Source: Moraxella osloensis
Lineage (GTDB): Bacteria; Pseudomonadota; Gammaproteobacteria; Pseudomonadales; Moraxellaceae
Reading direction: 5' to 3'
Length of the DNA: 64,000 nt
Assembly: GCF_001553955.1 (NCBI RefSeq)
Contig: NZ_CP014234.1
Span: 1,612,001 to 1,676,000 of the forward strand
The notes below the pieces were generated by a model, which ran no database searches, was not told the DNA's origin, and saw nothing but the letters and a program-made list of their open reading frames with translations. The position numbers and the translations under genes were made by a program. Positions 11,481 to 27,869 of the stretch are shown piece by piece (within the stretch, counting starts at the first letter, position 1; each line of letters starts with the position of its first letter).

Positions 11481-11970
11481 ACGAGCCTCTTTAAATTTGG
11501 ATAAATAGCTTAATTGAACTGATGCTAACAGGTTTCAAAAATTTATGGGTATTCTACCAATTAACGGCTTTATTTGCTGATTTTTATGGAGTGGAAAATA
11601 GCTACATAACTGTTGTAAGTAAAAATTTTCCCTAAAAAATTTCTATCATAAACAGTCTTTACTTGGTTTTTTTTGTATCCCTTTCACCAATTGCTTATCT
11701 TTGTTACACAAACCTCATCTAATAAGCTTTATGTTTACCAAACTCTACGAAAAAGACTGATCATAATACTATACAGCAAATACAAAAATTTATTATTATG
11801 AAACGGTAATAACCGAAAACGGATTGATGAAAAAATTGATTTTAATTTATGCATTTTAAGTTAACGTCACGTTTAATCGTTTTTCGACAATAAAAATAAC
11901 AGCCATATTAAAATTTTTTTCTAAACACTCGTATGGCTTGGATAAAAAAACTTCAAATGAGGATACCATC
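11481..11970. other. 490-bp AT-rich intergenic region
   Basis: Divergent upstream region of guaA and of the glycine-zipper gene. There is no ORF with recognisable content and no clear RNA motif. Presumably it holds both promoters. A TTG at 11938 opens the downstream frame, but ATG 11971 with GAGGAT before it is the better start. Confidence 0.5.
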
Positions 11971-13305
11971 ATGGTAGATAATATTAATGATTCAGACTTA
12001 AACCGCGACCCTATCACTGGTGAACCAGGCTCACACCCAATCGGTACCGCAGTAGGCGGTATGGGTGGTGCTGCTGCAGGTGCAGCTATCGGCGCTATTG
12101 GTGGTCCATTGGGTATGTTAATTGGCGGCGCAATTGGTGCAATCGCTGGTGGTGCTGCAGGTCACGCCGCAGGTGAAGCGATTGACCCAACTATTGAAGA
12201 TACTTATTGGAACGATACCTATACACAAACAACCTATTATAGAGATGGTTATGATTATACCACTGACTATCAACCAGCTTATGCCGTCGGCTATGCAAAC
12301 CGCGCAAAATACCCAGCTGGCACAACGTTTGACAGTGTAGAATCGGACCTTGAACGTAGCTGGCAGGAAGTAAAAGGTAGTTCACGTCTTGCATGGCAAG
12401 ATGCCAAAGAAGCTATTCGTGATGGTTGGGATAGAACAGATGCTCGTATTTCTGGTCAAGAATATTCACCACGTCTTCGTACGGTGGATGGCTATGCAGA
12501 AGGTGAAGAAAAAGCTCATCCTGTTGCTACTGGTACAGGTGCATTAGGTGGTGCTGCAGCTGGTGCAGCCGTTGGTTCAGTAGCCGGTCCTGTTGGTACC
12601 TTAGTGGGTGGCGCTATCGGCGCAGTAGCAGGTAGTGCTGCAGGTTATGAAGTCGGTGAAGCAGTCAACCCTACCACCGCTGAAGATGCTTACGAAAAAC
12701 CTCACCCAGTTGCCAGTGGTTCTGGGGCACTAGGTGGCGCCGCAGCCGGTGCAGCCGTTGGTTCAGTAGCGGGTCCTGTCGGTACCTTAGTGGGTGGCGC
12801 GATTGGCGCTGTAGCTGGCGGGGCAGCAGGTCATGAAGTCGGTGAAGCAGTCAATCCAACTGAAGCAGGCGAACAGCGTAAAGAAGCTAACCCTGTTGCC
12901 AGTGGTACAGGTATGGCTGCCGGTGCCGCGACAGGCGCAGCGATTGGTGCGGTAGGTGGGCCAGTAGGTTCAGTGGTGGGTGGTGCAATTGGTGCTGTAG
13001 CAGGCGCAGCCACAGGTAACGCGGTAGCAAATACGCTTGAAGGTAATACAGAAGAAGATACCTACTGGCGCAATAACTACAATACCACGACTTACTATAG
13101 CCAAGGTTATGATTACGATACTGACTATCGCTCGGCGTATGATTATGGTTATCGTGCACGTCATCATTTTAATACAGCTAATGAGTTTGAAAGTGTTGAA
13201 AATGACTTACGCAATGATTGGGAACAATTCAAAGGTAATTCACGTTTGACTTGGGACCAAGCTCGCCTAGCAGCACGTGATGCATGGTATCGTATTAAGC
13301 GTTAA
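11971..13305 (+). CDS. glycine-zipper repeat protein with duplicated aromatic/helical modules
   Basis: This 444-aa protein has an unusual internal architecture. Four glycine-zipper blocks of about 50 residues (22-73, 183-234, 245-296, 307-356) contain GGAAAGAAxGxxxGPxGxxxGGAIGAxAG and would form tightly packed helical hairpins. Two copies of a second module, a Tyr-rich stretch (76-115 and 362-398) followed by ESVENDLRNDWEQFKGNSRL-type amphipathic helix (119-154 and 406-444), flank the array. There is no signal peptide. Glycine-zipper proteins often associate with membranes or form stress-induced assemblies; the function here is unknown. Blocks 2 and 3 are nearly identical in DNA, indicating recent internal duplication. 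The start is ATG 11971 with ribosome binding site GAGGAT. Confidence 0.85.
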   Translation: MVDNINDSDLNRDPITGEPGSHPIGTAVGGMGGAAAGAAIGAIGGPLGMLIGGAIGAIAGGAAGHAAGEAIDPTIEDTYWNDTYTQTTYYRDGYDYTTDYQPAYAVGYANRAKYPAGTTFDSVESDLERSWQEVKGSSRLAWQDAKEAIRDGWDRTDARISGQEYSPRLRTVDGYAEGEEKAHPVATGTGALGGAAAGAAVGSVAGPVGTLVGGAIGAVAGSAAGYEVGEAVNPTTAEDAYEKPHPVASGSGALGGAAAGAAVGSVAGPVGTLVGGAIGAVAGGAAGHEVGEAVNPTEAGEQRKEANPVASGTGMAAGAATGAAIGAVGGPVGSVVGGAIGAVAGAATGNAVANTLEGNTEEDTYWRNNYNTTTYYSQGYDYDTDYRSAYDYGYRARHHFNTANEFESVENDLRNDWEQFKGNSRLTWDQARLAARDAWYRIKR

Positions 13306-13403: not shown

Positions 13404-13817
13404 TTAAATTACCATTTTGATGCCAATACCGATTAATACTAGCCCACCAAAAATTTCAGCTTTACTCTCTAGCCACGTGCCTGATTGCTTGCCCATAAAT
13501 ACGCCTATAAAGCTAAAAATGCCTGTTACCACGGCAATTACTGCACAGGATACATAAGGATTGACTGGGATTAAATTTAAGGTAAATCCGGCTGCCATTG
13601 CATCAATACTGGTTGCAATCGCTAAAGTAGTCATGGTTTTATGGGTGATGACAACATTGGCATCATTGGCGATATCTAAAGCAATATTGTGCGGGGTGGA
13701 ATCTTGTGATGCAGCATCTTCATCATCGCCAGATAAGGCTTCATACAGCATTTTTCCACCAAGCCCCACCAAAATAACGCACGCTATCCAAGGCGCCCAA
13801 TTTGCGATAAATCCTAA
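13404..13817 (-). pseudogene. mntP: manganese efflux pump MntP, C-terminal part (gene interrupted)
   Basis: Encodes the last two thirds of Mnt[28 protein letters not shown], an acidic loop, the second DxMxxG motif in [20 protein letters not shown], and terminal membrane helices ending [12 protein letters not shown]. The remaining N-terminal part lies 13.8 kb away at 27659-27838. Joining across the transposon and dropping one copy of the TAA duplication restores the frame as [14 protein letters not shown]. The apparent start MNR in this fragment comes from IS DNA. The organism would be expected to lack functional MntP. Confidence 0.92.
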
Positions 13818-13886
13818 GAACCTGTTCACGATTAAAAAATATGCTAGGATAAGCTACATAATCAATTAATAACCGAATCAATCACC

Positions 13887-14195
13887 ATGAGAAAAGCCTA
13901 TCCAAGCGACATTAGCCGAAAACAATTTGAGCACATACTACCTATTTTAGAAAGTGCAAGGAAGAAGACCAAACCAAGAACGGTTGACCTTTACGACGTA
14001 TTTTGTGGGTTATTGTATGTACTAAGAACAGGTTGCCAATGGCGACAGCTGCCCCATGACTTTCCCAAATGGCGCACCGTCCACGCCTACTTTCAGAAAT
14101 GGAGCGAGCTTGATGAAGAAGGCAACAGCATTCTTCATCAAGCCTTAAAAAAAATTGGTCAAAAAAGCGCGAAAGAAGGACAAACGCAAGGGTAA
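13887..14195 (+). CDS. IS5-family transposase, first frame
   Basis: 102 aa beginning MRKAYPSDISRKQFEHILPILES, the N-terminal DUF4096-like part of IS5-type transposases (CQWRQLPHDFPKWRTVHAYFQKW). It overlaps the second frame around an A8 tract at 14147-14154, where the coding frame must change by +1 (or -2) to continue as KKARKKDKRKGK. The full transposase would be made by frameshifting or transcriptional slippage on that run. Confidence 0.88.
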   Translation: MRKAYPSDISRKQFEHILPILESARKKTKPRTVDLYDVFCGLLYVLRTGCQWRQLPHDFPKWRTVHAYFQKWSELDEEGNSILHQALKKIGQKSAKEGQTQG

Positions 14196-14682
14196 AACCA
14201 GTTTTATCATCATCGATGCTCAAAGCGTTAAGAACACAGATACCGCTAAGTACAAAGGCTATGACGCAGGAAAGAAAGTATCAGGGATTAAGCGCCATAT
14301 TGCAGTAGACAGCCAAGGCTTGCCGCATGCTATCTGTATTACCACTGCCAATATCACCGACCGTGAGGGTGCTACAACGTTACTTCGTCAACATGCTAAA
14401 CGATTAAGCCGCGTAAAAAATGTGATGGTTGATGGCGGTTATCGAGGTGAGCCATTTGCTAATAGTGTTAAATCTATTTTAGGCGAAACCGTTACCACAG
14501 AAGTTGCCAAAAGAGATGAATTGCACACGTTTAAAGTCATACCAAAGCGATGTGTTGTAGAACGTTCGTTTGCTTGGCTTGAGAAAAATAGACGCTTATG
14601 GAAAAACTGTGAGCGTCATTTAAATTCGAGCCTTCAATTTACCAATCTTGCTTTCATCGCTTTGTTATTGAAAAGATTGTGA
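14155..14682 (+). CDS. IS5-family transposase, second frame (catalytic part)
   Basis: 175 aa carrying the DDE catalytic residues: D in IIIDAQSVKNTD, D in VMVDGGYRGEPF, and E in VVERSFAWLEKNRRLWKNCE. No good ribosome binding site precedes the TTG that opens the frame, which supports production as a fusion with the first frame across the A8 tract. The encoded protein is identical to that of the right-hand copy. Confidence 0.88.
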   Translation: MVKKARKKDKRKGKTSFIIIDAQSVKNTDTAKYKGYDAGKKVSGIKRHIAVDSQGLPHAICITTANITDREGATTLLRQHAKRLSRVKNVMVDGGYRGEPFANSVKSILGETVTTEVAKRDELHTFKVIPKRCVVERSFAWLEKNRRLWKNCERHLNSSLQFTNLAFIALLLKRL

Positions 14683-14692
14683 ACAGGTTCTT

Positions 14693-14734
14693 AAAGAGAT
14701 TTGGACCGAGTGGGAGGACTATCTAAATGATTGA
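14693..14734 (+). pseudogene. qatB: qatB 3' remnant
   Basis: Directly after the left IS, an open frame encodes [13 protein letters not shown] and stops with a TGA that overlaps the qatC start (AATGATTGA). Tight overlap of this kind is what a qatB-qatC junction would look like. Only 13 codons remain; the rest of qatB and all of qatA were removed or left behind when the IS arrived. Identification rests on position and overlap, not on sequence recognition. Confidence 0.55.
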
Positions 14735-16052
14735 ACTATATTTTGAGACTGACCCCACTAAATTACCTAATATGTCAAGTAATGTATTACCAGTCCGGAT
14801 GTTTGGCAAATCTGCACTGGAAGGTATGTACAACAGTATTGGCGGAGCTGCTTTACAAGAATTCAGAAGATTACAAGAACAGCCTGACGAAACAGCTTTT
14901 GACTTAATGATGTTATCGTTAGCAGTTACTGCCGCTGATACTTTCGTTGAACGAAACACCAGAGCAGAAGATGCTTGGTGTCGTCAATTTAAGGTTCATC
15001 TACCTTTACTAGAACCAGATTTGTGGCAACAACAAAGATCATTACTTCAAGAAACTTTACATTTTCTCAGCGGTGACTTATGGGATTTTGAATTTAGTCA
15101 AAGTGATTTTCAAATACCAAGTAAGATAACGCATCGACGAGCTCGAAAAATACACATCGATAATCATGACTCGGTTTGTTTATTCTCTGGCGGTCTCGAT
15201 AGTATGATTGGAGCCATAGATTTAACACAACAAGGGAAAAAACCTGTACTAGTCAGCCATGCTTATCCAAAAGATAGGGAAAAACAGGATGATGTTTATA
15301 ACAAACTTCGCCTTACTAATGCTAAATTTCAAGTCGTCGCAAACCCAAGAAAAGTAAAAGAAATCCCAGTCGATGTACAAATGAGAACACGGAGTTTTAA
15401 CTTTATTGCATTTGGAGCATTGATTGCTACTGCGTTATCAAAAAACCACTATAATAATCAAACCGTTAACCTTTATATCCCAGAAAATGGGCTTATTTCG
15501 ATCAATCCACCATTAACAGCTCGACGAATTGGTTCATTGAGTACAAGAACGACTCATCCCTTTTTTTTAGGAAAGCTGAACGAATTGTTCATCAATATTG
15601 GTTTACCTGTTAAGCTATTGAATCCTTACCAGTTTAAAACAAAGGGTGAGATGATAGTAGACTGCCAAAATCAGGCTTTACTGAAAAAGGTTGCCGTTGA
15701 TACAGTTTCCTGTGGTAAATGGAAACGCTCAGGTATTCAATGCGGCAGATGTGTGCCATGCTTGATTAGGCGAGCTTCTTTTAATGCAGCCACTTATAAT
15801 GATAATACACCATACCAATTCCCAGTTTTAAACCATGTCATCAAAAACCCCAATAATAGAGACGATTTGATGTCTATGATTGTCGCTATTCAGAGTTTAG
15901 AAAATGCTTCGAATAAAAATATTTGGGTGGCAAGGTCGGGTTCATTACCATTTGAGAAAACTGAACGTCAGAGCATTATAGATACTGTTTTAAGGGGAAT
16001 GGGTGAAGTGAAAAATTATTTACAAACTCAAAATTTGGATGTAACTGTCTAA
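14727..16052 (+). CDS. qatC: QatC, QueC-like PP-loop protein of a Qat anti-phage system
   Basis: 441 aa. A PP-loop ATP-pyrophosphatase motif SGGLDS lies at residues 154-159. A four-cysteine zinc site, as in the 7-cyano-7-deazaguanine synthase QueC, is at C329, C339, C342 and C345. The N-terminal 140 residues are an extension absent from housekeeping QueC but typical of QatC. It is joined to a TatD-like gene by overlapping stop and start codons. In the complete four-gene Qat system (QatA ATPase, QatB, QatC, QatD) QatC is required for phage protection. Here qatA and nearly all qatB are missing, so defence activity is doubtful. Confidence 0.85.
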
Positions 16053-16795
16053 TGTACCCATTGATTGATCTGCATTGCCATTTGGATTTATATGAAAATC
16101 CGCATAAAGTCGCTTCTTTATGCGATGCTTCAAGTTATATTCTATCAGTCACGACAACACCTAAAGCATGGTTCGGTACAAAGGAACTTGCAGAAAACCA
16201 TCAAAGAATTCAAACAGCTCTTGGTTTGCATCCACAGATAGCTCACGAACGAAGTGATGAACTAGATTTATTTGACCTATTAGTGGACGACACAAAATAT
16301 ATAGGTGAAATAGGATTAGATGGCTCGCGCTCACTAAAACAATTTCAATCGATTCAACAGAAAGTTTTTGAGCATATTGTTATACAATCGAATAAGTCTA
16401 CTCCTAAAATTTTAACCATTCATAGTCTTCAGGCTGTGGATAGCGTACTTGACTGTTTAAAAAATCATTTTTCAAATGGCGTACCTGTTCTACACTGGTA
16501 CACAGGAAATGAAATTCAATTAAACAGAGCGATAGCTAATGGCTGTTGGTTTTCAGTAAATCAAAGGATGCTCTCAACCAACAAAGGAAAACAGCTCGTC
16601 AGCAGAATTCCCAAAAACTGCATTATCACTGAAACGGATGGCCCATTTGTTAAGAGTAAAAATCAGCCAATTTTGCCTGGCGAAGTTATGCCAGTAATCA
16701 ATAGTTTATCTAAGCTTTGGAATGAACCAAGAGAGCAAGTTATTGCTAGAGTTTTCGAGAATTTTAAAAACCTTATAAGGCAAGTGACTTGGTGA
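16052..16795 (+). CDS. qatD: QatD, TatD-family metal-dependent nuclease of a Qat system
   Basis: 247 aa with the TatD metal-binding pattern: HxH in [11 protein letters not shown] at residues 8 and 10, a Glu in [10 protein letters not shown], His in ILTIHSL and VLHWYTG, and Asp in IITETDGPF. The TatD family cleaves DNA; in Qat loci the QatD component accompanies the QueC-like protein. Its ATG overlaps the last base of qatC, so the two are translationally coupled. Family assignment is strong; naming it QatD depends on the neighbour. Confidence 0.85.
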
Positions 16796-17042: not shown

Positions 17043-17384
17043 ATGAAAACGAATTTTCCTAAAGACTTCGATGTTGAAGCAGCGGTTCAAGCGATTATTG
17101 ATGATGAACCTGATTTGATAGCAGAGCGAGACAATTTGATTGAAGCATTAAACCAAACCAAAGCAGGTATCTTTGCACGTACGACAGAAATATCAGATAC
17201 GGCTCAAGTCCGCCATAAAGCGGGTTTGTCGCAAAGTCAATTTGCCAAAGCCTTAGGTATTTCTGTCAATACGTTAAAATCTTGGGAGCAAGGTCAGCGT
17301 AAACCGAGTGGCTCAGCGCAAGTCTTACTTAAATTATTAGGCAAAAAACCTGAGTTAATTGATGAGATTGCTCATTTTGCATAG
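17043..17384 (+). CDS. HigA/NadS-type antitoxin with HTH domain (orphan copy)
   Basis: 113 aa. The C-terminal half is a helix-turn-helix of the Xre type, RHKAGLSQSQFAKALGISVNTLKSWEQGQRKPSG, as in HigA/NadS-like antitoxins that bind their own promoter. The N-terminal half is a variable acidic region. It is almost identical at its C-terminus to the antitoxin at 23497-23829, and the similarity continues in non-coding DNA downstream. The adjacent toxin gene is truncated, so this copy is an orphan and could cross-neutralise the other toxin. Confidence 0.82.
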   Translation: MKTNFPKDFDVEAAVQAIIDDEPDLIAERDNLIEALNQTKAGIFARTTEISDTAQVRHKAGLSQSQFAKALGISVNTLKSWEQGQRKPSGSAQVLLKLLGKKPELIDEIAHFA

Positions 17385-17602
17385 TACTTGAGCCCTTCTA
17401 TTAAACACCTTTTAGTGAGTGTAATCGAAAGTTTCTTATAAGCTCTGTTTAAAGATGTGTTGAACGCTGATTTATAGATAGGTTAATTTACAAAAATAGG
17501 CATAAACTTAAGAAAATAAGAAACTCTATGAAAACATCTGTTTTCCGTAGGCTAGTTCTATTATCACGCGAATCTATAATGGTATAATACTCGACAAAAT
17601 TC

Positions 17603-18202: not shown

Positions 18203-19327
18203 ATGAATAACATCAATTTAAAAGAAACTTTTAAAACATTGCGTGGGCAAACAGGTAATCCAGCGGTTAGCGTATTTATTCCGACCCACCGTACTTTCCC
18301 AGACAATGAGCAAGACGCAATTGCCCTAAAAAACCAACTTAAAATCGTCGAAGAACGTGTCACCAATGAATACGACAAGCGTGTTGCTGCAAGTGTGATG
18401 GAAAAAATCCATGCCCAAACCGATGAGCTTGACCATAACTATAACTTAGATACGCTGGCTGTGTTTGCCACGCCTGAATCTGCTCAAGTGGTGCGTTTGC
18501 CCTTTGATGCCGCTGAGCGAGTCATCATTGGTGAAAAGTTTGCGACCCGTGACCTCATGCGTAACTTATCAGAAGGGGTTGGCTATTATGTGTTGGTAGT
18601 TACGCCTGAAAAAGCCCGTCTGATTGAAGGCGTGAATAATCGTCTGGTTGAAGAAATTAAAGGCGGTAGCGAACGTCAACAAACAATGAGCGAGTTGACC
18701 TTCCCTATTAACAACTCAACGCTACCCAACAACAGTAAAGCAGACCGTACAGGCTCATCAGACGATGATATGTACTTAAAAGAGTTCTTTAACCGTGTTG
18801 ATAAAAGCTTGCAAGAGCTTTATAACAAATCACCACTACCTGTGATTTTGGTGGGTGATAGCCACAATATGGGGTTTTATGAAAAAGTGTGCGACCGCCC
18901 TGATATGATTATTGGTAAAGTCGATAATTTAACATATTTAAACGACAGCAAGCCAGAGGACATTATTGCTGGCGTTCAAGACATCGTTGAGCAAAAGCGT
19001 CAGACTCGCTATGAAACTGCCAAAGGCGACCTTGAAAAAGCTCGTAATGAAAAGATGGTGCGTACTGATTTGCAACAAATTTATCGCTCGGCGTTTGAAG
19101 GCAATGCGGTAACGCTATTGGTTCGTCAAGGTCATAGTGTGCCTGCGAAGATTGATGAGAAAGCACAGACCCTACAAGTCCAAGATGATGCTACTGCTGA
19201 GGGTGTAACCGATGATGCGGTTAGTGAAATCATTGAATTGGTTAGCCATAACGGTGGTGAGGTGGTATTTGTACCCACTGAGCAAATGGATGAAAAGGAG
19301 CCGATTGCGTTGATTACTCGTTACTAA
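18203..19327 (+). CDS. Balon-like ribosome hibernation factor (bacterial aeRF1-related protein)
   Basis: 374 aa, cytoplasmic, no signal peptide. The N-terminal part (NPAVSVFIPTHRTFPDNEQDAIALKNQLK) and the middle (LAVFATPESAQVVRLP, YYVLVVTPEKARLIEG, LPVILVGDSHNMGFYEKVC) match the bacterial family related to archaeo-eukaryotic release factor 1. In Moraxellaceae that family includes Balon, described from Psychrobacter urativorans as occupying the ribosomal A site with EF-Tu during cold shock and starvation. No GGQ or NIKS motif of true release factors is present, consistent with a hibernation rather than termination role. An upstream TTG (18155) opens the frame, but ATG 18203 with GGGAG before it is the start. 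It is followed by a membrane hydrolase and nhaA. Family assignment is from recall of the pattern, without alignment. Confidence 0.65.
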   Translation: MNNINLKETFKTLRGQTGNPAVSVFIPTHRTFPDNEQDAIALKNQLKIVEERVTNEYDKRVAASVMEKIHAQTDELDHNYNLDTLAVFATPESAQVVRLPFDAAERVIIGEKFATRDLMRNLSEGVGYYVLVVTPEKARLIEGVNNRLVEEIKGGSERQQTMSELTFPINNSTLPNNSKADRTGSSDDDMYLKEFFNRVDKSLQELYNKSPLPVILVGDSHNMGFYEKVCDRPDMIIGKVDNLTYLNDSKPEDIIAGVQDIVEQKRQTRYETAKGDLEKARNEKMVRTDLQQIYRSAFEGNAVTLLVRQGHSVPAKIDEKAQTLQVQDDATAEGVTDDAVSEIIELVSHNGGEVVFVPTEQMDEKEPIALITRY

Positions 19328-19393
19328 TTACTAAATCGTTTACAATGAAGGGTAGGACAATGGTCTTACCCCTTTTTTTATTGAGTAAAATAG

Positions 19394-21136
19394 ATGAATA
19401 ATACGCATTTGGTCGCTCAATGGCTACAGCGACAGATTAAAGATAGTTCAGCAGTTGGGTTAATGCTGGGTTTTTTTTGTCTATATGTGTCCTATGTACC
19501 AATGTTGTTGCCACGGGTCTGGTGGTTGCAGGCAATCAGTGGTGGCATTAACGCTATCGTTGGTTATGCGTTTGGAATGCTGTTGGGTCTTATAGGGTAT
19601 TGGTTACAGCGTTTATTAAAAAACTCCAATCATCAATCAGCTATCAACCACCTAAATATCTTACCAATAATGACGATGGTATTAGGATTTTTAGGCGCGA
19701 TTGGTTTTGCTTTTTATCATTACCAGATTACTGCCAAGATTGCCCAACAGGTCCAGATAACACCGCCGTCATTACTTAGTGTCAGTGGGTCAATGCTCTT
19801 AAGTCTATTGATTTGGGGGTTGGTCGTGTTTATCGCTCGCTTGATAAAGCAATTGGTGTTGATGGGGGTAGAACGTGGCTTTCCACAGTTTTCTACTACC
19901 ACAAAAATGAGTATGAAAGCAGGGGCTTTTTTACTACTGATTGTCGGATTGGTTACGTTAAGTCGAGATTATATCTGGCACAAAGTTGTCGAGAAAGTCG
20001 CCTATAGTGCCATGCAGCTTGATACCTCTGAACCCGATACCCTATCAGCCCCATTCTCACGGTATAAATCAGGGTTTGATAGTGGGCAAACGGGGCATAG
20101 TAATAAAGAAAAACCTGCCCAACAGTGGCAGGAGTTGGGGCATTTTGGACAACGCTTTGTCTCGCTTGGGGCGTCGCAGAAGGATATTAGCTTGCTGACA
20201 GGATTGCCTGCCAAAGAGCCGATTCGGGTATTCGTTGGTTTGAATCGTCAAGAACCTGATAAAGCGTTGTTAGAAAAAATGGTGCAGACCGCCCTTGATG
20301 AGATGGATAGAACGCAGGCGTTTACCCGCCGCTATATCGTGATACAAGGGGCTACAGGACGGGGCTGGATTGAAGAGTACAGCAGTCAGGCGGTTGAGTA
20401 TTTGACCCAAGGCGATGTGGCAACGGTGGCGATTCAATACTCGTATTTACCCAGTCAATTTTCGTTTTTGTTGAATGGTGAGCTTGCCACGTTTGCCAAT
20501 AGCGAGTTGATAAATGCCGTCAAACAACGTCTTGAGCAAATGCCGATTGATAAACGCCCTAAATTACTGCTTGCAGGAGAGTCGTTAGGGGCGTATGCCA
20601 GTCAATCGCTTTTTAACAATTATGATGATGTCATTAATCGTATTGATGGGGCGGTGTGGGTGGGAACGCCAAGATTTAGCCCACTATGGCAACAACTGGT
20701 GGCGAATCGGAATAAAGGTTCGACGGAAGTCTTACCCATTATTCATGGCGGACAACATGTGCGATTTATGGATAATCCTGCCTCATTAAAACAACTGACA
20801 AATGATTGGCAGTCACCACGAATTGTATTTTTGCAGTATGCGACAGACCCTATCGTGTGGTGGTCGTCCAAGATGCTATGGCAAGCACCTGACTGGATGG
20901 CAGAACCCAAGGGTCGAGGGGTTAGTCATTTACCTAGATGGTTGCCTGTGTTAAGTTTTTGGGAATTATCTCTGGATATGCCAGCGTCTAACCAAACGCC
21001 TGCAGGATTTGGTCATATTTATGAAGATGATATCGTGTATGCGTGGGCGGCGGTACTCGATAATTCACAAGTTGACCCTAAGCAAGTGGCAGAAAGAATT
21101 GAACAGCGAATAGCATTCACAAAAGAGAATAAATAG
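19394..21136 (+). CDS. membrane-anchored alpha/beta-hydrolase (Abhydrolase_9 type)
   Basis: 580 aa. The first 210 residues form about four membrane helices (VGLMLGFFCLYVSYVPMLLP, GINAIVGYAFGMLLGLIGYW, IMTMVLGFLGAIGFAFYHY, LSLLIWGLVVFIARLI) plus a fifth (AGAFLLLIVGLVTLS). The C-terminal domain contains the nucleophile elbow AGESLGAYASQ and VWVGTPRFSPLW, as in the Abhydrolase_9 family of unknown substrate. It is 66 bp after the Balon-like gene and 24 bp before nhaA, so probably co-transcribed with both. The role is unknown; a stress or membrane-lipid role would be a guess. Confidence 0.8.
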   Translation: MNNTHLVAQWLQRQIKDSSAVGLMLGFFCLYVSYVPMLLPRVWWLQAISGGINAIVGYAFGMLLGLIGYWLQRLLKNSNHQSAINHLNILPIMTMVLGFLGAIGFAFYHYQITAKIAQQVQITPPSLLSVSGSMLLSLLIWGLVVFIARLIKQLVLMGVERGFPQFSTTTKMSMKAGAFLLLIVGLVTLSRDYIWHKVVEKVAYSAMQLDTSEPDTLSAPFSRYKSGFDSGQTGHSNKEKPAQQWQELGHFGQRFVSLGASQKDISLLTGLPAKEPIRVFVGLNRQEPDKALLEKMVQTALDEMDRTQAFTRRYIVIQGATGRGWIEEYSSQAVEYLTQGDVATVAIQYSYLPSQFSFLLNGELATFANSELINAVKQRLEQMPIDKRPKLLLAGESLGAYASQSLFNNYDDVINRIDGAVWVGTPRFSPLWQQLVANRNKGSTEVLPIIHGGQHVRFMDNPASLKQLTNDWQSPRIVFLQYATDPIVWWSSKMLWQAPDWMAEPKGRGVSHLPRWLPVLSFWELSLDMPASNQTPAGFGHIYEDDIVYAWAAVLDNSQVDPKQVAERIEQRIAFTKENK

Positions 21137-21159
21137 CTATTTTTATATTAGGAGGGTCT

Positions 21160-22347
21160 ATGAGTAATTTTCAGCAAACGCTTAAGCGGTTTTTTGCGAT
21201 GGATGCAGCGGCTGGTATTGTTTTAGCCATCGCTGCACTACTGGCAATGATTGTTGCCAATTCGCCATTGCAAGAAAGCTATGAGCATTTATTGCATTTT
21301 CCGATTGCGATAAGTTTTGGTGATTTCGTGGTGAAACACCATTTGCTTCATTGGATTAATGATGGGTTAATGGCAGTGTTTTTCTTTTTAGTGGGGCTTG
21401 AGCTTAAACGTGAAATGATGGTAGGGGAATTGTCCAACCCACGCAACATCATTTTACCTGCACTCGCTGCCATGGGCGGCATGGTGTTTCCTGCCTTAAT
21501 TTATTTGATGTTTAACTACCAAAACCCTGATTTTGCTAAGGGTTGGGCGATTCCTGCGGCCACGGATATCGCCTTTGCGTTGGGGGTATTAACCTTACTG
21601 GGTAGCCGAGTGCCGCTGTCGCTTAAAGTGTTTTTAACCTCAATTGCGATTTTCGATGATATTGGGGCGATTTTAATCATTGCTTTGTTTTATTCCAGTG
21701 GGTTAAACCTAGCCGCCTTAGGGGTTGCCGCTTTAACGCTTGCAGTATTGTTTATCATGAATCGTTTTAATGTCACTCGTATTTCTGCGTATGTCATTAT
21801 TGGATTGGTGTTATGGGTGGCGATGCTTGAATCGGGTATTCATGCCACGATTGCTGGGGTATTGCTGGCGATGTTTATCCCAATGACTGATTCGGCAAAC
21901 CCTAAAATCTCACCGTTAAAAGAACTTGAGCATGATTTGCATCATACAGTGAGCTTTTTGATTTTGCCCGTATTTGCCTTTGCCAATGCAGGGATCCATT
22001 TTGGGGGAGCGGAAGGAGGCTTTATGGCGTCACTCACCCACCCTGTGTCATTGGGCATTATCATGGGATTGCTAGTCGGTAAAATGCTGGGTGTGATGTT
22101 ATTTAGTTGGCTTGGGGTTAAGCTAAAGCTCGCCAATCTGCCACAAGGCATGAACTGGGGTCAAGTAATTGGTGTCGCTGCCCTATGTGGCATTGGATTT
22201 ACCATGAGTTTATTTATCGGGAGCTTGGCGTTCGCAGGATTGGAGATTAAACCGTTTGATGAGCGATTAGGGATTGTCATGGGTTCAGTTTTAGCAGGCA
22301 TTATCGGTTATTTTTATCTGAATAAGACATTGCCAAAACAAGCCTAG
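21160..22347 (+). CDS. nhaA: Na+/H+ antiporter NhaA
   Basis: 395 aa inner-membrane antiporter exchanging internal Na+ for external H+, used for salt and alkaline pH tolerance. It shows the usual hydrophobic profile of 12 helices. The ion-binding aspartates are present: D136 in IPAATDIAFALG and D166/D167 in AIFDDIGAI, equivalent to D133, D163 and D164 of E. coli. The ribosome binding site AGGAGG is 8 bp before the ATG. It is the last intact gene of the Balon-hydrolase-nhaA group and is followed by a terminator. Confidence 0.95.
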   Translation: MSNFQQTLKRFFAMDAAAGIVLAIAALLAMIVANSPLQESYEHLLHFPIAISFGDFVVKHHLLHWINDGLMAVFFFLVGLELKREMMVGELSNPRNIILPALAAMGGMVFPALIYLMFNYQNPDFAKGWAIPAATDIAFALGVLTLLGSRVPLSLKVFLTSIAIFDDIGAILIIALFYSSGLNLAALGVAALTLAVLFIMNRFNVTRISAYVIIGLVLWVAMLESGIHATIAGVLLAMFIPMTDSANPKISPLKELEHDLHHTVSFLILPVFAFANAGIHFGGAEGGFMASLTHPVSLGIIMGLLVGKMLGVMLFSWLGVKLKLANLPQGMNWGQVIGVAALCGIGFTMSLFIGSLAFAGLEIKPFDERLGIVMGSVLAGIIGYFYLNKTLPKQA

Positions 22348-22435: not shown

Positions 22436-22543
22436 ATGTTGATTGCGATTGTGGCATTTTTAGTGGGGCTAGCTATACTGGTGTGGAGTGCCAACGTGTT
22501 TATTGATGGGGCAACGGATTTGGCCGTCAAGTTGATGCGTTAA
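22436..22543 (+). pseudogene. 5' fragment of a calcium/sodium antiporter-like gene
   Basis: ATG 22436 opens MLIAIVAFLVGLAILVWSANVFIDGATDLA, the first helix and start of the conserved region of CaCA-family (YrbG-like) exchangers. The next bases switch at about 22521 to resolvase sequence in another frame, giving a chimeric 35-aa ORF. The rest of the gene is absent. It probably continued the nhaA group before being cut by the resolvase-bearing segment. Confidence 0.65.
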
Positions 22544-23076
22544 AAGAAATCGGCTGTGAGCGAATTTTTGAAGACAAAGCATCAGGCAGTAATTCCCAAC
22601 GTAAAGGATTGGATGATTGTCTAAACTATTTGCGAAAAGGCGATGTGCTTGTTGTTTTGGATTTGGATAGGTTAGGGCGGTTAGCCAGTGAGCTTATTAA
22701 ACTCATCGATGAACTGGCTGAAAAAGACATTGGCTTTAAAGCGATTAATTCACCGATGGATACCACAACCCCTGCAGGTCGAGCCTTTTTGCAGATTCAA
22801 GCTGCTTTTGCGGAGATGGAGCGTAATATTATCCACCAGCGGGTAAAAGAGGGGATTGCGGCTGCTAGGGCTCGGGGGCGTAAAGGCGGCAGACCTAGAA
22901 TCATGACTGCTGAGAAACTGCGATATGCCCAGCATCTGATGCAAGACCAAACCAAAAGCATTCCTGCGATTTGCAGGGAGCTTGGTGATATTCCCAGCAG
23001 TACGCTGTACCACTATGTGACGGCGAAAGGGGAGTTGAAGAAGGCAGGGGTGGATTTAATAAGCAAACTCGATTAA
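22522..23076 (+). pseudogene. Tn3-type serine resolvase, 5'-truncated
   Basis: Open frame from about 22522: GRQVDALKEIGCERIFEDKASGSN, then DVLVVLDLDRLGR, GRAFLQIQAAFAEMERN and a C-terminal DNA-binding segment rich in RGRKGGRPR. The N-terminal region YxRVSxxxQ with the catalytic serine is missing because the frame joins the antiporter fragment at about 22521. It is probably non-functional. It lies directly before a toxin-antitoxin pair and a Tn3-type end, the usual arrangement in Tn3-family elements that carry such modules. Confidence 0.82.
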
Positions 23077-23179: not shown

Positions 23180-23500
23180 ATGTATACGGTCGTCGAAACA
23201 GAAAGCTTTAAAGTTGAGATTGCTCAATTGTTAGATTTGGATGATCGATTGGCTTTTTTTACTTACCTTTCACAAAATCCATTAAAAGGTGATGTGATTC
23301 AACATGGCAAAGGATTACGCAAAATTCGTTGGGCAACCAGTGGTAAAGGTAAGTCAGGTGGGGTTCGAGTTATCTACTACAATATGCTGGATGATGGACT
23401 GATAGTTTGTCTAGCTGTGTATGCGAAAAATGAAAAAGAAAACATTTCTGCCAAAGAATTAAAATCTTTGAAAAATGAAAAGCAAGGAAACCAATCATGA
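23180..23500 (+). CDS. RelE/ParE-family toxin
   Basis: 106 aa. RIRW-type core (GLRKIRWATSGKGKSGGVRVIYYN) and LIVCLAVYAKNEKENIS match RelE/HigB-like mRNA-cleaving toxins of type II modules. Its last four bases overlap the ATG of the antitoxin gene. The toxin-first order is that of HigBA-type pairs. This is the complete version of the fragment seen at 16929-17039. Confidence 0.86.
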   Translation: MYTVVETESFKVEIAQLLDLDDRLAFFTYLSQNPLKGDVIQHGKGLRKIRWATSGKGKSGGVRVIYYNMLDDGLIVCLAVYAKNEKENISAKELKSLKNEKQGNQS

Positions 23501-23829
23501 AACGTGTCAAATTTTCTGATTTAGATATTGCCAATATTGTTGAAGCGGTGATTAAAGATGACCCTGATGCGGTTGTTATTAAAGACAGTTTAGCCAAATC
23601 ACTTTCTCAATTACGAGAAGGACGGTATGCACCCGTATCGGAAGTCAGCCAAGTTCGTCAAAAGACAGGCTTGTCGCAAAGTCAATTTGCCAAGTCATTG
23701 GGGATTTCAGTCAATACTTTAAAGTCTTGGGAGCAAGGTCAGCGTAAACCGAGCGGTTCAGCTCAAGTCTTGCTTAAGTTATTGGGCAAAAAACCTGAGT
23801 TAATTGATGAGATTGCTCATTTGGCATAG
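23497..23829 (+). CDS. HigA/NadS-type antitoxin with HTH domain
   Basis: 110 aa. N-terminal toxin-binding part (MKRVKFSDLDIANIVEAVIKDDPDAVV) and a C-terminal HTH (RQKTGLSQSQFAKSLGISVNTLKSWEQGQRKPSG). It overlaps the toxin gene by 4 bp. The HTH and the following non-coding DNA are near-copies of 17220-17500. It is likely to bind and repress its own promoter together with the toxin, as usual for this family. Confidence 0.86.
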   Translation: MKRVKFSDLDIANIVEAVIKDDPDAVVIKDSLAKSLSQLREGRYAPVSEVSQVRQKTGLSQSQFAKSLGISVNTLKSWEQGQRKPSGSAQVLLKLLGKKPELIDEIAHLA

Positions 23830-24048
23830 TACTTGAGCCATTCTAGTAACTACCCTTCTTTGAGTGTAATTGAAATTTTCTCATAGGGTCTATTTACATA
23901 TTTATTAGATACTGATTTGTAGACAGGTTAATTTACAAAAATAGAGGCGATTTGCCTCTGTTTTTTCGCCTAAATGGAAGTGTCCAAAAAACCAACGTTT
24001 TTTAGACACCTTGACCTTTATCAATTTTAAAAATACTCGACTAAATTC

Positions 24049-24531: not shown

Positions 24532-25128
24532 ATGTCAAATAAATATTCTATTAAATTTTCAATCCTCGTCAGCTTATCAGCGTTATCTTTGGTCGCTTGT
24601 GGCAATCAAGTCGCGAAAAATAGTCAAACAGATACCATCGCCTCAACGCCTCAAACAACTCAGCAGCGTCAGGCGATAACCACCATTCCTAACGTTCAAA
24701 CTCAAATCTCAGATACATTGAAAAACAATACGTTAACGGTACATCGCGACCCGAACTGTGGCTGTTGTCATAGTTGGATTGAGCATGCTAAATCCTACGG
24801 TGTGATGATTGTTGACAAAGTCACCAGTAATGAGGCAGTTACAGCGATCAAAGCGCAGCATCAATTACCAACGTCAATGTACTCTTGCCATACCATCATA
24901 AGCCAAGACGGTTATGTGTTTGAGGGTCATGTGCCGGTCAAGTATATGGATAAGTTCCTACAAAACCCGCCCAAAGACGCTATTGGTCTAGCCACACCGG
25001 GTATGCCAATGGGTAGTCCAGGCATGGAAATGGGTGATCAATTCAGTCCTTATACTATTATGCTGATAAAAAAAGACGGTAGTACCGCGCCTTATGCTAG
25101 TATTAAACAAGCAAACGAACAATATTGA
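24532..25128 (+). CDS. DUF411 lipoprotein, probably metal-handling
   Basis: 198 aa with a lipoprotein signal (hydrophobic stretch ending LSLVAC, Cys near residue 23) and a low-complexity Gln/Thr linker, so expected at the outer or inner membrane facing the periplasm. The DUF411 core follows: VHRDPNCGCCHSWIEHAKSYG, SMYSCHT, VFEGHVPVKYMDKFL and a Met-rich GMPMGSPGMEMG loop. Cys, His and Met clusters suggest copper or another soft metal; family members lie in metal-resistance clusters. Next to it is a cation diffusion facilitator, which supports a metal role, though the metal is not known. Confidence 0.85.
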   Translation: MSNKYSIKFSILVSLSALSLVACGNQVAKNSQTDTIASTPQTTQQRQAITTIPNVQTQISDTLKNNTLTVHRDPNCGCCHSWIEHAKSYGVMIVDKVTSNEAVTAIKAQHQLPTSMYSCHTIISQDGYVFEGHVPVKYMDKFLQNPPKDAIGLATPGMPMGSPGMEMGDQFSPYTIMLIKKDGSTAPYASIKQANEQY

Positions 25129-25280: not shown

Positions 25281-25626
25281 GGTGGTCGGATACTTATTTT
25301 AATCCAAATTCTATGCTGATGCCTAATTTATCAGGCCACATCAAAGAAAGCTAAATCAAAGGCTTTAAAGTGATTTTCCAGCTTTTTAGGAAAGTTACAA
25401 CTTCGCCTAAATGCTCGCCTTACTCGATGTCTGATAGTGCAATTATTACCTTCAATGCCTTTTGCAGTCTTTGTATTTATAGTTTCGCTTACCATAGCTT
25501 TTGAAACCATTTTTCTTTATATTGTCACTTAGACAGGCTGGGCATTTGATGTATAGTGTCATTTGCATTTCACTATTTATCAATTTCTCAGCCTGTTTTT
25601 TCCAGCCTAGTTTTTGAACCACCACC
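25281..25626 (-). mobile_element. IS1-family remnant with internal deletion
   Basis: Minus-strand ATG at 25568 starts MQMTLYIKCPACLSDNIKKNGFKSYGKRNYKYKDC, the zinc-finger start of InsA. Only about 70 bases after its stop, the frame RHRVRRAFRRSCNFPKKLENHFKAFDLAFFDVA gives the end of InsB. Most of the catalytic part is deleted. Both ends begin GGTGGT. The result is a MITE-like remnant of about 346 bp lying immediately upstream of the CDF transporter gene. Confidence 0.6.
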
Positions 25627-25643
25627 CGGATATAAATGTAGCT

Positions 25644-26474
25644 ATGAATAAAACAACTTTTAAAATATCAAAGATGGACTGCCCTTCGGAGGAAAACCTA
25701 ATCCGAATGAAATTAGAGGGCCACTCGAATATTGAACATCTTGAGTTCGACATTCCTAACCGTCAATTAACTGTGTTTCATCATGACAATATAGAAGGGA
25801 TAGAGACTGCTATTCATGACCTAAAATTAGGAGACATCTTACTCTCGACCGAAACCATTGACCCCTCTGATCCCAACAATAATTTTAAAGTTGATGCTGA
25901 CTCTAGTCACAAAAAAGATGCTGAGCAAAGAAAGCTACTATGGATAGTGCTGGTCATTAACTTTGCTTTCTTTATTATTGAAATGAGCACGGGACTGATT
26001 TCTCGTTCGATGGGGTTGGTCGCCGACAGCTTAGATATGTTAGCAGATAGCTTTGTGTATGGAATTAGCTTATTTGCGGTCGGTGGAACGGTCATTAAGA
26101 AAAAACGGATTGCTAGAATTGCCGGATATTTTCAAATTACGCTGGCGATTCTTGGTTTTTTAGAAGTACTAAGACGTTTCTTTGGCAATGAGCAGTTACC
26201 TGACTTTTCTACCATGATAGTCATATCGATTCTTGCGCTAATTGCAAACTCGATTTGCCTCTATTTACTACAAAAATCGAAAAGCAAAGAAGAAGCCCAT
26301 ATGCAAGCCAGTACGATTTTCACTTCAAACGATGTGATTATCAATTTAGGGGTAATTGTTGCAGGGATTTTGGTTAATTGGTTACACTCTAGTACGCCTG
26401 ATTTGATTATTGGTAGCATCGTATTTGCTTTAGTTATTCAGGGCGCCTTTAGAATATTGAAGTTGAGTAAGTAG
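25644..26474 (+). CDS. cation diffusion facilitator with N-terminal metal-binding-like domain
   Basis: 276 aa. Residues 1-75 resemble a heavy-metal-associated (ferredoxin-like) domain with MDCPSEEN in place of the usual CxxC. From about residue 95 there are six membrane helices of the CDF family, with the metal site DSLDMLADSFVYG in the second helix. It should export a divalent or soft metal ion from the cytoplasm. An upstream TTG (25614) would add ten residues; ATG 25644 is preferred. It pairs with the DUF411 lipoprotein gene 515 bp upstream. The metal is not identified. Confidence 0.82.
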   Translation: MNKTTFKISKMDCPSEENLIRMKLEGHSNIEHLEFDIPNRQLTVFHHDNIEGIETAIHDLKLGDILLSTETIDPSDPNNNFKVDADSSHKKDAEQRKLLWIVLVINFAFFIIEMSTGLISRSMGLVADSLDMLADSFVYGISLFAVGGTVIKKKRIARIAGYFQITLAILGFLEVLRRFFGNEQLPDFSTMIVISILALIANSICLYLLQKSKSKEEAHMQASTIFTSNDVIINLGVIVAGILVNWLHSSTPDLIIGSIVFALVIQGAFRILKLSK

Positions 26475-26785: not shown

Positions 26786-26793
26786 GAACCTGT

Positions 26794-27321
26794 TCACAAT
26801 CTTTTCAATAACAAAGCGATGAAAGCAAGATTGGTAAATTGAAGGCTCGAATTTAAATGACGCTCACAGTTTTTCCATAAGCGTCTATTTTTCTCAAGCC
26901 AAGCAAACGAACGTTCTACAACACATCGCTTTGGTATGACTTTAAACGTGTGCAATTCATCTCTTTTGGCAACTTCTGTGGTAACGGTTTCGCCTAAAAT
27001 AGATTTAACACTATTAGCAAATGGCTCACCTCGATAACCGCCATCAACCATCACATTTTTTACGCGGCTTAATCGTTTAGCATGTTGACGAAGTAACGTT
27101 GTAGCACCCTCACGGTCGGTGATATTGGCAGTGGTAATACAGATAGCATGCGGCAAGCCTTGGCTGTCTACTGCAATATGGCGCTTAATCCCTGATACTT
27201 TCTTTCCTGCGTCATAGCCTTTGTACTTAGCGGTATCTGTGTTCTTAACGCTTTGAGCATCGATGATGATAAAACTGGTTTTACCCTTGCGTTTGTCCTT
27301 CTTTCGCGCTTTTTTGACCAA
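26794..27321 (-). CDS. IS5-family transposase, second frame (right copy)
   Basis: 175 aa, same protein as that of 14155-14682: DDE motif in IIIDAQS, VDGGYRG and VVERSFAWLEKNRR. Linked to the first frame through an A8 tract (T8 on the plus strand near 27322-27329). Confidence 0.88.
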   Translation of the reverse strand: MVKKARKKDKRKGKTSFIIIDAQSVKNTDTAKYKGYDAGKKVSGIKRHIAVDSQGLPHAICITTANITDREGATTLLRQHAKRLSRVKNVMVDGGYRGEPFANSVKSILGETVTTEVAKRDELHTFKVIPKRCVVERSFAWLEKNRRLWKNCERHLNSSLQFTNLAFIALLLKRL

Positions 27322-27589
27322 TTTTTTTTAAGGCTTGATGAAGAATGCTGTTGCCTTCTTCATCAAGCTCGCTCCATTTCTGAAAGTAGGCGTGGACGGT
27401 GCGCCATTTGGGAAAGTCATGGGGCAGCTGTCGCCATTGGCAACCTGTTCTTAGTACATACAATAACCCACAAAATACGTCGTAAAGGTCAACCGTTCTT
27501 GGTTTGGTCTTCTTCCTTGCACTTTCTAAAATAGGTAGTATGTGCTCAAATTGTTTTCGGCTAATGTCGCTTGGATAGGCTTTTCTCAT
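27281..27589 (-). CDS. IS5-family transposase, first frame (right copy)
   Basis: 102 aa, same protein as that of 13887-14195, beginning MRKAYPSDISRKQFEHILPI. Retention of identical sequence in both IS copies argues that the transposon is young or that the copies are homogenised. Confidence 0.88.
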   Translation of the reverse strand: MRKAYPSDISRKQFEHILPILESARKKTKPRTVDLYDVFCGLLYVLRTGCQWRQLPHDFPKWRTVHAYFQKWSELDEEGNSILHQALKKIGQKSAKEGQTQG

Positions 27590-27658
27590 GGTGATTGATT
27601 CGGTTATTAATTGATTATGTAGCTTATCCTAGCATATTTTTTAATCGTGAACAGGTTC

Positions 27659-27838
27659 TAAGATTGAACGTCCACCGAGATAACCAATCAAAGGCATCAA
27701 ACCTTGAAACACGCCAAAATATACGCCTGCCATGACCGCAATTTTGGTCGTATCTTGGCGGTGTTTGGCACCGAGTCCAATCGCTACAGCAAAGGCATCC
27801 ATCGATAAGGCTATCGCTAGCAGTAATAAGGCAATCAT
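27659..27838 (-). pseudogene. mntP: manganese efflux pump MntP, N-terminal part (gene interrupted)
   Basis: ATG 27838 opens [60 protein letters not shown]: helix 1 with the [10 protein letters not shown] metal motif and helix 2 of MntP. The frame is cut at the TAA duplication by the composite transposon and resumes at 13817. Only 95 bp separate it from gyrB, too little for a manganese riboswitch besides the terminator. Confidence 0.92.
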
Positions 27839-27869
27839 GTGATATCTCTTCTAAAAATTCAAGCTGAAA

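Follow-up and report, generated by a model that had tools for sequence, protein, structure and literature searches.

A ribosome hibernation factor of the Balon type in Moraxella osloensis very probably lies in a plasmid block that an IS5-flanked composite transposon moved into the chromosomal gene mntP, and this genome would have no other recognised hibernation factor. The evidence comes from a 64,000-nucleotide stretch of DNA (the window: assembly GCF_001553955.1, contig NZ_CP014234.1, positions 1,612,001 to 1,676,000), to whose numbering all coordinates below refer.

A full-length Balon protein

The open reading frame at 18203..19327 (+ strand; 374 aa), read as Balon-like in an earlier note made from the letters alone, is assigned by Pfam and NCBIfam profiles and by phmmer to the AOC03_06830 (Balon) family of ribosome hibernation factors. 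The equivalog NF052287 ("AOC03_06830 family ribosome hibernation factor"; cut-off 330 bits) scores it at 520 bits over profile positions 1-361 of 361, and PF18845 (baeRF_family3) matches at 114.8 bits (cut-off 31.5). Its best relative of solved structure is the Balon of Psychrobacter urativorans (AOC03_06830; 8rd8, 8rdv and 8rdw), with a phmmer E-value of 1.8e-121 to 8rd8 over residues 6-374. With full-length homology above a curated equivalog cut-off, the earlier reading stands, and we regard the frame, from its sequence, as a full-length Balon orthologue and a member of an already known family. The mycobacterial Msmeg1130/Rv2629 proteins (the MSMEG_1130 family of hibernation factors) belong to the same superfamily and have, according to the literature, the same A-site role; with that family's profile (cut-off 480) the window protein reaches only 21.5 bits, which marks a different equivalog.

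Neither GGQ nor NIKS, the motifs of aeRF1, is found in the protein, as the note had also said, and both are likewise missing from P. urativorans Balon and from the plasmid and relative Balon proteins. The position of the presumed HP (decoding-centre) motif is our own placement, because the accessible text of the Balon paper does not state the exact residues. Here P. urativorans Balon reads THREHP, whereas the window copy, the plasmid copies and a chromosomal copy from the same genus (genome G002) read THRTFP; a distant relative (G056) reads THRSFP, and most relatives have HP.

A structural comparison with Balon had been proposed as a check. The top Foldseek matches of the AlphaFold model are the Balon chains 8rdw, 8rdv and 8rd8, followed by archaeal RF1 (aRF1) and mycobacterial Msmeg1130. 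But the model is poor (pLDDT 53.9, pTM 0.41) because its alignment held only five usable sequences, and the matches, at a TM of about 0.4, partly reflect sequence. The fold evidence is for this reason secondary, and the assignment to Balon is carried by the sequence comparisons.

An IS5-flanked composite transposon in mntP

Two IS5-family elements of 873 bp bound the segment that holds balon. The left copy (13818..14690, + strand) has the ends GAACCTGTTCAC and GTGAACAGGTTC and a transposase in two frames; the right copy (26786..27658, - strand) is inverted and identical to it, with 0 differences over 873 bp. A TAA target-site duplication stands at both outer flanks, at 13815..13817 (within mntP) and at 27659..27661. 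The segment so bounded measures 13,841 bp and interrupts mntP on a contig of 2.43 Mb: the 3' part of the gene lies at 13404..13814 (- strand) and the 5' part at about 27662-27845. The gene name was assigned by eye, and we take mntP to encode a manganese exporter; its neighbours, also read by eye, are presumably gyrB, recF, dnaN and dnaA. Excision of the segment with one TAA restores an mntP of 196 aa. The gene is intact in two species of the same genus, G005 (99%) and G004 (98%), and both carry the empty site with a single TAA, CCTAAGATTGAACG, which is the same CCTAAGATTG site.

An IS pair bounding cargo, a target duplication and an intact empty site in relatives together identify a composite transposon. 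The inference of an IS-bounded block was thus sound, although the two elements enclose more DNA than the interval first considered. Known IS-flanked composite transposons likewise have two inverted IS copies, a 3-bp target-site duplication and plasmid-type cargo; the element described here differs in that its cargo includes a ribosome hibernation factor. Outside the element, at 11938-13305, a glycine-zipper protein is encoded by a sequence that contains repeats of about 180-186 bp.

Other cargo of the segment

To the right of the left IS lie two genes of the Qat anti-phage system, qatC (14727..16052, + strand; NF041925, 430 bits) and qatD (16052..16795, + strand; NF041926, 311 bits). The system is truncated by the left IS (14727-16795 being what is left), with qatA and nearly all of qatB gone; of qatB, the alignment to plasmid NZ_CP068111 takes in the last 44 bp. 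On that plasmid and on NZ_CP135141, a P-loop NTPase gene and a hypothetical-protein gene lie upstream of qatC. Profile matches and the plasmid alignment place an orphan MqsA/HTH-type antitoxin at 17043..17384 (+ strand). A direct repeat of 295 bp (84%), at 17205-17499 and 23650-23944, is shared by two HTH antitoxin copies.

To the right of nhaA, a fragment resembling the start of a membrane protein (22436..22525, + strand; by eye we take it to be Ca/Na-antiporter-like) is cut by the junction of a recombinase unit. The region 22436-22609 fuses this gene start to a truncated serine recombinase (22609..23076, + strand), a recombination junction common to the plasmids; the recombinase fragment belongs to a unit of recombinase, toxin and antitoxin, which on other plasmids is found flanking the block. 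A pair of RelE-like toxin and HTH antitoxin (23180..23829, + strand; from the annotation of a plasmid copy) follows, and profile matches identify a DUF411 protein (24532..25128, + strand) and a CDF cation transporter (25614..26474, + strand).

Plasmid copies and origin of the block

Five plasmids from the M. osloensis group carry the block of balon, abh9 and nhaA: NZ_CP068111, AP031474, NZ_CP024445, NZ_CP024181 and NZ_CP135141. The DNA is about 98% identical to that of the window, and the Balon proteins are 98.9-99.5% identical to the window copy. Two of the plasmids align, at about 98.4-98.6%, with all of the cargo from a point slightly ahead of qatC as far as the right IS; the three others have recombinase-toxin-antitoxin units on both sides of the block. 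These copies, together with the target duplication and the empty site, bear out the earlier suggestion that the gene travels on a mobile element.

The plasmid comparison bears on whether balon might be cargo that is inert or decaying and owes its retention solely to a position between plasmid addiction and metal-resistance genes. Its surroundings would suit such a fate, with toxin-antitoxin, recombinase and IS sequences and truncated genes (qatB, recombinase) around it. But the balon frame is intact, its pN/pS between the window and the five plasmid copies is 0.09-0.21 (on fewer than 10 synonymous changes), and the flanking sequence and terminator are kept in the plasmid copies. We consider inert cargo quite improbable. 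A contribution to the mobile element itself, through plasmid persistence or through protection of ribosomes against RelE-type toxins or phage, strikes us as highly improbable. It would fit the travel of balon between RelE/HTH toxin-antitoxin units, and beside Qat genes in some copies, and Burroughs and Aravind (PMC6514570) connect certain rescue factors related to aeRF1 with biological conflicts. Against it, most other Moraxellaceae members of the family lie in conserved chromosomal surroundings, and a search for phage carriage returned no Balon match among 50,697 phage records.

In the Balon tree, the window and plasmid proteins fall inside the Moraxella clade, apart from Psychrobacter, and group with the chromosomal Balon of G002 (support 93/90). 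Identity is 65-66% to the G002 protein and 69-74% to the chromosomal Balon proteins of M. lacunata, M. caprae and M. catarrhalis, of the same clade. Given this clustering, the plasmid gene may have been native to the genus and have reached a plasmid from a donor that is not among the genomes sampled, although the support for the grouping is not conclusive. A direct origin from Psychrobacter is not supported, since the copy clusters with G002 and the Moraxella group. We also considered Xer/pdif mobilisation; in the window segment, no 28-bp pdif-like site came closer than 4 mismatches to the search pattern.

The neighbours abh9 and nhaA

Downstream of balon lie abh9 (19394..21136, + strand; 580 aa), which encodes a membrane alpha/beta hydrolase with Abhydrolase_9_N and Abhydrolase_9 domains (PF10081, 355.9 bits; PF15420), and nhaA (21160..22347, + strand; 395 aa), which encodes a Na+/H+ antiporter (TIGR00773, 479 bits). 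The three genes are as tightly clustered as had been claimed. The nhaA gene is an extra copy, a second one (C1:2034770) being 70% identical; the source genome holds no second abh9.

The earlier note had read the trio as a "cold/salt stress unit", which it may be, with the hydrolase as a candidate new partner in hibernation. That the three form one functional unit, selected together, in which the hydrolase acts by remodelling the envelope or by signalling to Balon, and NhaA handles salt and pH, seems to us unlikely. The window and the five plasmids all keep the triplet in one order and spacing, differences between these copies are mostly silent with a low pN/pS for balon, abh9 and nhaA alike, and abh9 and nhaA lie 23 bp apart on the same strand, so that these two may be co-transcribed. 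But the six copies are near-identical and thus amount to one event. A terminator-like hairpin with a T-run (19350..19381, + strand), kept in the plasmid copies, separates balon from abh9; the scan that found it gave 8 terminator-like sites against 5.8 in shuffles, a slight excess only.

Of 349 Moraxellaceae genomes, 3 have Abh9, and only in the source genome is it beside Balon; no other Balon among the 349 adjoins an abh9 or nhaA gene, and in the closest other pair of Balon and nhaA seen, on comparing listed coordinates by eye, about 13 kb separates the two (G253). The neighbours of Abh9 on plasmids of Paracoccus and Rhodococcus include no annotated hibernation gene. An Enterobacter plasmid match (H12) was set aside, as it has 21% identity and only a short alpha/beta hydrolase, with no Abh9-family annotation in the stretch shown. 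The survey of neighbourhoods thus recovers the triplet on five plasmids, in near-identical copies only and in no other of the 349 Moraxellaceae genomes, and the proposed partnership of Abh9 in hibernation is not supported by it. The linkage is real on the element and gives no evidence of joint function; abh9 and nhaA are probably passengers.

The chromosomal locus and other hibernation factors

Among the 349 Moraxellaceae genomes, Balon is found in 105 of genus g8, 13 of g10, 15 of g15 and 1 of g2, and in 2 of the 6 genomes of the window's genus. Genus g8 is probably Psychrobacter-type, as its copies group with P. urativorans Balon, and g10, with the copies of M. lacunata and M. catarrhalis, is probably Moraxella. 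In g8 and part of g10 the gene order is EEP (PF03372), balon, prlC (PF01432, M3 peptidase). In the source genome (G000) and two sister species (G004 and G005), EEP adjoins prlC, with about 0.4 kb between the tblastn matches, and balon is absent from this locus. From its absence in these three related genomes, balon can be read as lost from the chromosome in the window's lineage; the loss and the plasmid capture could be a single relocation. Since the close relative G005 has no Balon, carriage varies among close relatives. A second, chromosomal balon in the source genome, which the earlier note had asked about, was not found; the Balon gene is single.

Chromosomal balon repeatedly adjoins or lies near a gene of the endonuclease/exonuclease/phosphatase (EEP) family (loci L022, L024, L026, L075-L077 and L081-L083). 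In M. lacunata, M. caprae, M. catarrhalis and G002, chromosomal balon is beside an EEP-family gene in some genomes, and no adjoining abh9 or nhaA and no IS-bounded segment was seen. The accessible text of the Balon paper (PMC10901736) does not name an EEP-family neighbour. As a recurrent neighbour of chromosomal balon, the EEP gene is a better candidate for study than Abh9 or NhaA.

Profile searches found PF02482 (HPF/RaiA) in 319 of the 349 Moraxellaceae genomes and in 0 of the 6 of the window's genus (Fisher p 2.5e-7 for the genus versus the rest, in a test that ignores shared ancestry). Only two g10 genomes, G028 and G254, have it. PF02482 being present in most of the family, HPF/RaiA appears to have been lost from every one of the six genomes in the window's genus (g1) and from nearly all of g10. 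PF04957 (RMF) is also absent from the six, E. coli being the only control genome that matched. With neither HPF/RaiA nor RMF in the genus, and balon missing from its chromosomal locus here, the mobile Balon is, as far as profile searches reach, the sole recognised hibernation factor predicted in the source genome; an unrecognised or very divergent factor would escape such searches.

Discussion

The family membership of the protein, the transposon anatomy, the empty site, the plasmid copies, the vacant ancestral locus and the lack of HPF and RMF matches are plain in the genomes compared, and the following course of events would account for them. Chromosomal balon was probably lost from its old place in the source genome and in the sister species G004 and G005. 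Plasmids of the M. osloensis group would have carried a relative of the Balon native to the genus, in one block with abh9 and nhaA, and an IS5-flanked composite transposon would have brought a plasmid segment into chromosomal mntP in the source strain. By analogy with Psychrobacter Balon, the protein most likely moves into the A site of ribosomes, whether vacant or translating, under stress or in stationary phase. It would sit by the decoding and peptidyl-transferase centres and keep the ribosome inert; binding is expected to be independent of mRNA, and EF-Tu(GDP) would be recruited. Both the hibernation activity of the window protein and its benefit to the host are inferred from this likeness.

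According to the accessible text of the Balon paper (PMC10901736), Balon is widespread, typically in stress-response operons and most often adjoining RaiA. Unlike P. urativorans Balon, the window copy is borne by a plasmid and transposon, has a host without HPF/RaiA and does not lie beside EEP or prlC. Lateral transfer of the baeRF clade has been inferred from phylogeny (PMC6514570, as far as accessible), and the terms "horizontal" and "transpos" are absent from the accessible text of the Balon paper. A limited search of literature on Balon, plasmid-encoded hibernation factors and Moraxella HPF returned no report of a plasmid-borne Balon. What is new, within that search, is a concrete mobile element carrying Balon, in a lineage without HPF, RMF and chromosomal Balon.

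The vehicle of transfer is now visible, with named plasmids, a composite transposon, a target duplication and an empty site. In a lineage without HPF/RaiA, RMF and chromosomal Balon, hibernation might be a plasmid- or transposon-borne trait, acquired and shed by individual strains much as resistance genes are, a view that we hold tentatively and at somewhat less than even confidence. Related strains and species that differ in Balon, on a background without HPF or RMF, offer a natural comparison of dormancy with and without the factor, and with it a way to ask whether the capacity for dormancy may be a transferable accessory trait in a bacterium of skin and laundry.
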